A program made the position numbers and the translations under genes. This document shows, piece after piece, positions 2,872-7,073 of a stretch of DNA of 23,958 nt (its first letter is position 1; every line of letters starts with the position of its first letter). Source of the DNA: a virus; the IMG/VR virus record IMGVR_UViG_3300033149_001222, positions 1 through 23,958 of that record; one strand, 5' to 3'. Below the pieces are notes generated by a model that worked only from the letters and a program-made list of their open reading frames with translations, made no database searches and was not told the DNA's origin.

Positions 2872-3299
2872 TTGACCGACTACAGGAACAAATCAAGGTG
2901 GTGGCGGAGGCTAGGCAAAGGCTACAAGAGGCAACCGAATGTAAAACTTCAGCTTATCAGAGATGGCTTGAAACTAATCAAGTTCTTTTTGATAATGAGG
3001 CTAATGTTAAAGAAACCTGCTCAGAAGCTGAGAATAAATTAAGAGAGCTTACACTCCAAGCTTATGCTGAGACAGATAACAAAGCGCCAGCAGTTGGGGT
3101 GGGTATCAGAGAACGAACAATCCTGACCTATGATGGCAAGATTGCCCTTGACTGGGCTAAGGCTCACAAGATGGCACTTCAGCTAGATAAGAAAGCCTTT
3201 GAAAAAATAGCAAAGGCAGACCCCCCAGACTTTGTTAAGATTACCACCGAACCACAGGTTACAATCGCAACTAATTTAGATGATAAGATTAAGGGGTAA
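2868..3299 (+). CDS. phage protein with N-terminal coiled coil, near recombination genes
   Basis: A 143-residue protein with ATG at 2868 (ATGA overlap, AAGGAGGCGAAGAA upstream). Residues 1-70 form a long coiled coil (IDRLQEQIKVVAEARQRLQE and onward). The second half has VGIRERTILTYDGKIALDWA, then KKAFEKIAKADPPDF and PQVTIATNL. That C-terminal arrangement ('YD...A..WAK....L.LD...FEK.AK') recurs in uncharacterised phage proteins found next to erf/ssb-type recombination genes, by recollection. It may act with the annealing system, but no catalytic motif is seen. Confidence 0.75.
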   Translation: MIDRLQEQIKVVAEARQRLQEATECKTSAYQRWLETNQVLFDNEANVKETCSEAENKLRELTLQAYAETDNKAPAVGVGIRERTILTYDGKIALDWAKAHKMALQLDKKAFEKIAKADPPDFVKITTEPQVTIATNLDDKIKG

Positions 3300-4684: not shown

Positions 4685-5350
4685 ATGAATCAATCAGAAC
4701 AAATAAACGAACTAGCAGTAGCACTATCAAAATTTCAGGGGGAGATGACATCGGTAAAGAAGGATGCTGTTAATCCATTCTTCAAGTCCAAGTACGCCAC
4801 GCTTGACACAATTTGGGAAGCTATCAGAAAACCCCTATCAGATAACGGTTTGAGTGTAATACAAACACTGGGTATTGGGGAAGGGTTCACGACATTGGGA
4901 ACCAAGCTGCTCCACACTAGTGGTCAGTGGGTTGAGGGTTCAATGCCACTCAATCCTGAAAAGGACACACCACAAGGATTAGGCTCGGCAATAACTTATG
5001 CTAGACGTTATTCTTTAAGTGCCATACTTGGTATAGTAGTAGATGAGGATGATGACGCTGAATCTACTAAGAGGAAGGGTGAAAAGGCTAAACCAGTGGT
5101 CAAACAGACTAAAACTAATAAACGACAGAAAAAAGTAGAGTTCGATACGACCACACTCCCAGGGGCACTAGCCTTTCTAGAAAACAAAAACCCCAAGAAA
5201 TGGGGACATCTTGTAGTAGCCACTAGACTATCAGACAAATATGGTGTAACAGGAGATACTATAGAAGAGCTTGTCGAGTTGTTAAATCCTGAACAGAAGA
5301 GGGAGTTTATTGACATTGTATCCCAAGCTGTGGTAAAATTGAATACTTAA
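4685..5350 (+). CDS. erf: Erf-family single-strand annealing protein
   Basis: A 221-residue protein, ATG at 4685 behind AAGGAGGGACG. The N-terminal 125 residues match the ERF superfamily: ELAVALSKFQGEMTSVKKDA, NPFFKSKYATLDTIWEAIRK, LSDNGLSVIQT, a TTLGTKLLHTSG segment, then TPQGLGSAITYARRYSLSAI and LGIVVDEDDDAE. Such proteins form rings and anneal complementary single strands in phage recombination. The C-terminal third (Lys-rich linker and a small helical domain, LPGALAFLENKNPKKWGHL onward) may bind SSB or DNA. Its last 40 bases contain the promoter of the structured leader. Confidence 0.93.
   Translation: MNQSEQINELAVALSKFQGEMTSVKKDAVNPFFKSKYATLDTIWEAIRKPLSDNGLSVIQTLGIGEGFTTLGTKLLHTSGQWVEGSMPLNPEKDTPQGLGSAITYARRYSLSAILGIVVDEDDDAESTKRKGEKAKPVVKQTKTNKRQKKVEFDTTTLPGALAFLENKNPKKWGHLVVATRLSDKYGVTGDTIEELVELLNPEQKREFIDIVSQAVVKLNT
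5310..5339 (+). promoter_or_regulatory. promoter for the structured leader
   Basis: TTGACA at 5310-5315, an 18-nt spacer, TAAAAT at 5334-5339, again with TGTGG directly before the -10. The first ten bases (TTGACATTGT) and the TGTGGTA block match the consensus promoter at 3917. The predicted start is about 5346, just before the first helix of the leader. The promoter lies inside the end of erf. Confidence 0.7.
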
Positions 5351-5601
5351 TAACTTGCCGGTTACACTCACTAGTTTTGGTCGGTCTAATAAGACTGTAG
5401 GATGTGGGTGATTAAAATGAGCTAGCAAGAGGTGCCAGCTACTACTGAGTGGCTCACATAAGAGCTAGTTGGTACAGCCTGAACCGAGTAAGAACCCGCC
5501 GTGCACAATACCCTAAGCGGGGGCAGGGAACGGAAAGGTTCAGGTAGGGACTCAAAGTACACACCTTCACGTGGTGAGTTCTGTTTAATGCTGAGTGTAC
5601 T
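5346..5601 (+). ncRNA. about 255-nt multi-domain structured leader RNA
   Basis: There is no credible gene between erf and the ATG at 5615, but base pairing is dense. Domain 1: CTTGC 5354-5358/GCAAG 5425-5429, CACTCAC 5365-5371/GTGGGTG 5404-5410 and hairpin 5382-5397. Domain 2: 5432-5441/5466-5475 (10 bp, two G-U) with inner TGAG/CTCA. Domain 3: CCTGAACC 5478-5485/GGTTCAGG 5537-5544 enclosing CCCGC 5495-5499/GCGGG 5517-5521, with a possible pseudoknot CCCT 5511-5514/AGGG 5525-5528. Domain 4: AGTACAC 5556-5562/GTGTACT 5595-5601, abutting AAAGGAGG. It has its own promoter and no terminator before the gene, so a cis-acting leader is likeliest. I cannot match it to a named RNA. Confidence 0.6.
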
Positions 5602-5614
5602 AAAGGAGGAAAAG

Positions 5615-5881
5615 ATGGATAAAGATAGTGCTGAATATAAAAGGGTAAGGGAGGAAACAGCTAAGGCTTTTTATGATGCTGTGTTTCCTAGTGCTGACTG
5701 GGATGAGCCGTCAGATTACGAGAAACAACCCTTTTATAACAAGGCTGACCAAATCCTCTCCATTAAAGGGTTAGCTATATTAGCTGACGACCAGAGTTGT
5801 AAGATACAACGCCTTGGAAGCCAAGAATATGAGGATACGGACTTCCCAACTGTCTATTGTGATGTAAGGAGGACAATCTAA
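5615..5881 (+). CDS. hypothetical protein behind the structured leader
   Basis: An 88-residue acidic protein. ATG 5615 follows TAAAGGAGGAAAAG. The frame is open upstream to 5501, but that part lies in the paired leader and is not a plausible protein. It reads SAEYKRVREETAKAFYDAVF, PFYNKADQILSIKGLAI, then an end with DFPTVYCDVRRTI. 'ADQILSIKGLAIL' resembles small phage proteins of unknown role. Its TAA overlaps the next ATG (TAATG). If the leader RNA is a regulator, this is the first gene it controls. Confidence 0.75.
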   Translation: MDKDSAEYKRVREETAKAFYDAVFPSADWDEPSDYEKQPFYNKADQILSIKGLAILADDQSCKIQRLGSQEYEDTDFPTVYCDVRRTI

Positions 5882-6952: not shown

Positions 6953-6990
6953 TAAACTATATATAAGGGATAAGGAATCGTAGCTGTGTT

Positions 6991-7063
6991 CCTTACCATC
7001 CTTACAAGCTAGGCGTGAGTTCCTTACGGGAGCTTACATTCCTTACAAACTTACAATCCTTAC
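6991..7063 (+). repeat. five iterated CCTTAC motifs (operator or iteron-like)
   Basis: CCTTAC occurs five times in 73 bases, at 6991, 7000, 7022, 7041 and 7058, four of them preceded by a T and most in the context ATTCCTTAC or GTTCCTTAC. An inverted partial copy, TAAGGAA, lies at 6971-6977. The 121-nt gap 6953-7073 contains no gene, and the array ends 11 nt before the methyltransferase start. Candidate roles are protein-binding iterons (replication origin or operator) or an RNA element able to pair with ribosome-site sequences. Confidence 0.6.
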
Positions 7064-7073
7064 GGGGAGTGAA

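Follow-up and report, generated by a model that had tools for sequence, protein, structure and literature searches.

Gene order and features of the gap

The window is a stretch of 23,958 nt of viral DNA (IMG/VR record IMGVR_UViG_3300033149_001222, positions 1 to 23,958). Its gap at 5351-5614 is flanked by the gene of an Erf-like annealing protein and by four small genes, for which no convincing family matches were obtained. Inspection of the reading frames of 5351-5614 confirmed a preliminary description of the gap as containing no credible ORF, and neither a tRNA nor a tmRNA was detected in the window. The promoter-like site announced inside the end of erf is present, with a -35-like TTGACA (5310-5315), an 18-nt spacer and TAAAAT (5334-5339), a preceding TG and 11 of 12 consensus matches; from its position we infer a transcription start near 5346. 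The structured gap is real, and it consists of two elements rather than the one-piece leader of about 255 nt first proposed: a structured RNA is indeed present, but the 3' part (5547-5602) is a theta-type ribozyme with a cut predicted just before it. The features are as follows.

5310..5339, + strand: promoter-like site of the sigma-70 type, TTGACA - 18 nt - TAAAAT (consensus match only)
5354..5544, + strand: non-coding structured RNA with domains PA, PB, PC and PD, its family undescribed (homologues L080, L076 and L058; alignment and folding)
5354..5363, + strand: 5' strand of helix PA, pairing with 5420-5429 (38 of 40 cells form pairs across the four phages, with few changes)
5420..5429, + strand: 3' strand of helix PA, with a conserved AAAAUG just before it (alignment of four phages)
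5365..5371, + strand: 5' strand of helix PB, pairing with 5404-5410 (4 of 5 compared pairs changed on both sides)
5404..5410, + strand: 3' strand of helix PB (alignment of four phages)
5432..5441, + strand: 5' strand of helix PC, pairing with 5466-5475, the 10-bp stem first described (4 of 10 pairs changed on both sides)
5466..5475, + strand: 3' strand of helix PC (alignment of four phages)
5478..5485, + strand: 5' strand of helix PD, pairing with 5537-5544, the 8-bp stem first described (32 of 32 cells paired, 1 pair changed on both sides)
5537..5544, + strand: 3' strand of helix PD, ending 2 nt before the predicted cut (alignment of four phages)
5495..5528, + strand: possible H-type pseudoknot within PD, 5495-5499/5517-5521 and 5511-5514/5525-5528 (sequence)
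5547..5602, + strand: minimal HDV-like ribozyme of the theta type, cut predicted at 5546^5547 (Rfam, P1 comparison, own covariance model)
5547-5553/5576-5582 and 5557-5562/5595-5600, + strand: ribozyme P1 and P2
5563-5565/5573-5575, 5566-5572 and 5591, + strand: ribozyme P3, L3 and catalytic C
5602..5609, + strand: AAAGGAGG, the ribosome-binding site for the gene that starts at 5615, first of the four; it follows P2 directly (sequence)

Two reading frames in the gap were considered as coding and rejected. A GTG frame from 5501 into the first gene merely reads through the ribozyme core. The AUG within AAAAUGAGC opens frames of 2, 5, 24 and 29 residues across the four phages that carry the upstream RNA; the length of this AUGAGC frame is not conserved, so it does not represent a conserved leader peptide. 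The gap that follows the four genes (6985-7068) contains an inverted repeat and a cluster of direct repeats of the CTTAC type, among them three copies related to CTTACCATCCTTACAAGCT; these are perhaps protein-binding sites.

Upstream RNA: architecture and homologues

The stems reported earlier are all found: 5432-5441/5466-5475 (10 bp including G.U pairs), 5478-5485/5537-5544 (8 bp), 5495-5499/5517-5521 (5 bp) and 5511-5514/5525-5528. Two more had been overlooked, namely 5354-5363/5420-5429 and, inside it, 5365-5371/5404-5410. An H-type pseudoknot inside PD is plausible, an analogous arrangement being recognizable by eye in L076 and L058, with a nested one instead in L080. The string AAAATGAGCYAGCAAG was used as a query against IMG/VR, and among the 57 stretches returned three share the architecture (contigs L013/L080, L076 and L058), so that the family is known from four members. 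PA has the consensus CUUGCYGGUU/AGCYAGCAAG and encloses PB; an extra helix, PF, is present in all three homologues and absent from the window. In all four phages the RNA lies upstream of small genes on the same strand. Only two proteins of the window have relatives in L076, both distant (24-27% identity), and the DNA of the two does not align at the RNA; since L076 has almost nothing else in common with the window, the RNA has been kept where nearly all else changed.

Compensatory changes in homologues had been suggested as a check, and they are found beyond chance. In a manual structural alignment of the four phages, which was fitted to the helices by eye and hence biases the pair counts towards them, 155 of 159 base-pair cells are paired and 12 pairs are changed on both sides. 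When partners are swapped between phages, the paired cells decrease from 20 to 10-17 of 20 in PB, from 38 to 32-37 of 40 in PC, and from 27 to 21 of 27 in PF. PA hardly varies and therefore carries little information, and PD only slightly more. Folding energy is not decisive for the whole gap (5346-5614), which surpasses its shuffles only mildly (z -1.55; 11 of 200 shuffles did as well); the piece 5346-5546 alone reaches z -2.28 (5 of 200). The homologues L080 and L076 gave z -3.0 and z -3.25. The minimum-energy fold of the isolated piece is exactly the conserved PA-PD architecture; a fold that includes the ribozyme bases, with pseudoknots disallowed, differs from it. A switch by mutually exclusive pairing of PA and PC was considered and rejected, being possible in the window and L080 and not kept in L076. 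That the gap is ordinary intergenic or coding DNA with stems arising by chance would suit the modest energy of the whole gap and the GTG frame from 5501, but this is extremely improbable in view of the compensatory changes across four phages, the varying length of the AUG frames in AAAAUGAGC, the match of the ribozyme to its own model, and the tRNA and tmRNA adjacency of its relatives (see below).

The upstream RNA of the window and its homologues gave nothing above chance against Rfam 15, including ROOL, tmRNA and riboswitches; the only trace in the homologues is a sub-threshold twister-P1 match of 17.7 bits in L058. Model searches of about 900 bacterial genomes, which offered no positive control, yielded no convincing homologue, and their single match (L182) was rejected as it is without the conserved strings. 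Neither one pattern scan of genome contigs for host prophages nor BLAST against phage records revealed a convincing relative of this RNA, and wider patterns of the 5' domain gave nothing new. No description of the RNA was found in the literature searched, a scope that leaves out most subscription journals and all preprints. These results support the assignment of the upstream RNA to an undescribed family outside Rfam 15.

Two further observations concern the family. In L058 (2150-2920, - strand) the RNA is interrupted between PA and PC by a DUF6939-like gene, and the near repeat GAGGGCAAGTTGCCA / GAGGGCAAGGTGCCA flanks this gene; the match of its product is 5e-6, just under the family cut-off. 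On a Dehalococcoidia contig (L156, near 3237-3254, - strand) GCAGGCT...GTGAAAATGAGCCTGCAAG resembles a shortened PA domain, which the PA model did not confirm.

Theta-type ribozyme and its relatives

By its sequence the segment 5547-5602 carries the core that marks theta ribozymes, the minimal HDV-like class, and it is predicted to cleave itself. The helices follow the nested double-pseudoknot order P1-P2-P3-P1'-P2', with 7 of 7 bp in P1, 7 bp in P2 and 3 bp in P3. As in the relatives, P1 opens with a G.U pair (G5547.U5582), the usual setting of the cleavage-site G (G1) in this class. L3 is UUCACGU, and C5591 is followed by UGA; a C as the first J4/2 base is catalytic in theta/HDV-like ribozymes (PMC10879173). 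L172, the copy next to a tmRNA, has the same L3 and the same GCUGA. P1.1 is formed between L3 and J1.1/4; in the window C5568 pairs there with G5583, and U5567 and U5584 do not pair (U.U), where other copies have C-G, U-A or U.G. The last stem, earlier noted as abutting the ribosome site, does exist, but it belongs to this ribozyme and is not a separate leader domain.

A permissive Rfam search (451 bases) matched 5547-5602 to RF02682 (HDV-F-prausnitzii); the score of 26.1 bits (E 0.007) falls below the curated gathering cut-off of 44 bits. Our own model, built from 12 relatives without the window and L080, scores the segment 5547-5602 at 44.6 bits (508 kb searched, E 2.2e-7) and has no other match in the window contig; the window does, however, also fit the pattern by which the training copies were collected. 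The proposed Rfam check thus gave nothing for the upstream RNA and a match below its cut-off for the 3' part, and the early difficulty in placing the element in a named RNA class persists for the former only, the latter being an HDV-like theta ribozyme.

A pattern taken from the window element led to a second copy on the related phage contig L013/L080 (RF02682, 29.5 bits), and BLAST of that copy to the gut phage MT835492.1, where the same core follows tRNA-Met. A core pattern returned 12 IMG/VR contigs including L013; these, minus L013 and plus MT835492.1, are the 12 relatives, which agree with the theta ribozymes of Kienbeck et al. 2024 (PMC10879173). Of the 98 P1 cells in the 14 copies 97 are paired; dealing the partners anew gave 59 on average and never more than 77. 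In 8 of the 12 relatives the end of an ARAGORN tRNA lies within 2 nt of the predicted cut, and three of four extra matches of our model in L170 abut tRNAs. In the tRNA-linked copies the predicted cut is one or two bases beyond the acceptor stem, and in the window (5546/5547) it is 2 nt beyond PD, the last stem of the upstream RNA; the junction reads 'GCUA|G' in several of the former and 'GGUA|G' in the window.

Other copies have different neighbours. In L172 (3654-4092, - strand) a phage tmRNA (ARAGORN; RF00023, 80.1 bits) is immediately followed, at its 3' end, by a theta-type ribozyme; tmRNA is unmentioned in the main text of the theta paper (PMC10879173). In L175 (11972-12643, + strand) one is located 8 nt before a ROOL RNA (RF03087, 270.8 bits), which puts its predicted cut just upstream of the ROOL 5' end. 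Not every copy adjoins a folded RNA: just upstream of that in L177 (2513-2567, - strand) there is no tRNA, and the sequence does not fold stably (z 0.42). The sister ribozyme in L080 (3164-3220, - strand) keeps the core, but its G1 is replaced by A and its P1 contains an A.C mismatch, and it may for this reason be inactive; it is a natural variant useful as a control.

By blastn the window and L080 are similar at 5543-5613 (87%) and then at the second gene (92%); the upstream RNA is not covered, and the gene before it also differs. Our model detects no ribozyme in L076 and L058, though both carry the RNA. The RNA without a ribozyme in these two, together with the similarity at the ribozyme alone between the window and L080, indicates that the two modules are separable; they occur joined in the window/L080 lineage. 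The ribozyme could be a decayed, inactive remnant, the functional part being the upstream RNA alone within the transcript. Its absence from two of the four family members, the damaged P1 of L080 and the U.U in P1.1 of the window would fit such decay. It is nevertheless improbable, as the helices, G1, L3 and catalytic C are all intact in the window, the L3 UUCACGU and GCUGA recur in L172, and the ribozyme was kept at 87% while the neighbouring RNA diverged.

Interpretation and known systems

The comparison of the phages establishes a conserved RNA architecture, a theta core and their juxtaposition. The locus probably encodes a stand-alone phage ncRNA of about 190-200 nt (about 5346-5546), followed directly by a theta-type ribozyme that would free it. 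Most likely the ribozyme, by its predicted cleavage, creates two ends at once: the 3' end of this free ncRNA and the 5' end at which the downstream mRNA begins. Transcription would start from the promoter at the end of erf, and the nascent RNA would fold into the HDV-type nested double pseudoknot and cut itself at 5546^5547. The upstream RNA would be freed, in the way that theta ribozymes release phage tRNAs, with its 3' end two nucleotides past PD, and the downstream mRNA would be left with a 5'-OH end, bearing first the folded ribozyme and then the open ribosome-binding site AAAGGAGG. The transcription start, the cleavage and the action of the RNA as a free molecule (in trans) are what we infer from this arrangement.

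The RNA was first described as a phage-encoded cis-regulatory RNA or ncRNA with its own promoter that controls the four genes. The structured RNA and the promoter-like site are borne out; a single leader of about 255 nt controlling the four genes is not the best reading. As a cis-acting 5' leader the RNA would sense a condition or ligand, with the ribozyme maturing or stabilizing the mRNA or taking part in the switch. This accords with the gene order of the four phages, in each of which small genes on the same strand come right after the RNA, with the ribozyme abutting the ribosome-binding site, and with L076 and L058, where the RNA lacks the ribozyme and so remains joined to the mRNA. Such a leader is possible but rather unlikely, since the predicted cut splits the RNA from the mRNA in the window, no terminator or sequestered ribosome site was seen on the + strand of the gap, and the RNA of L058 contains the DUF6939-like gene. 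Moreover, the first downstream gene of the window (P0002), for which no IMG/VR relatives were found, is absent from L080, the contig that holds the sole IMG/VR relative found for the second; a first downstream gene that differs between the two closest phages argues for the RNA as a separate unit.

The window element is best compared with the theta ribozymes described from phages (Kienbeck et al. 2024, PMC10879173). The window copy has in common with these the core ACC-UYCACGU-GGU ... UAAUGCURA, a 7-bp P1 with G1, P2, the lack of a long P4, a phage location, and a predicted cut right where a folded RNA upstream ends. It differs in the non-tRNA structured RNA upstream, the mRNA downstream and the U.U in P1.1, and no gut origin is shown for it. 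Membership in the tRNA-associated subgroup requires a cut no more than 5 nt from the 3' end of a tRNA, and the window has no tRNA. RF02682 is the best Rfam model for 5547-5602, with CACACCU..ACGUGGUGAG and GCURAG in common, but the score stays below the cut-off (26.1 versus 44 bits) and the window is without the P4 stem. ROOL (RF03087) is likewise a large structured RNA of phages, and that of L175 adjoins a theta-type ribozyme; the window RNA has no covariance-model match to it and is about 190 nt long, versus about 600 for ROOL. The ribozyme at the tmRNA end in L172 has the L3 and J4/2 variants of the window, but the window RNA lacks a tRNA-like part, a tag frame and a match to the tmRNA model (RF00023).

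Theta ribozymes were published as acting in phage tRNA maturation, with hundreds of non-tRNA copies left unexplained (PMC10879173). The window locus, L172 (tmRNA) and L175 (ROOL) offer a concrete, testable role for such copies, the formation of the ends of other phage RNAs. It is an evenly balanced question whether the upstream RNA represents a new phage ncRNA class with a theta-made 3' end, which would imply that theta ribozymes serve phages as a general end-forming device (for tRNA, tmRNA, next to ROOL, and for this RNA). With a structured RNA family defined in phages that otherwise share almost nothing, its function can now be asked. The ribozyme is a known class in a little-explained context, and the upstream RNA is not in Rfam 15.
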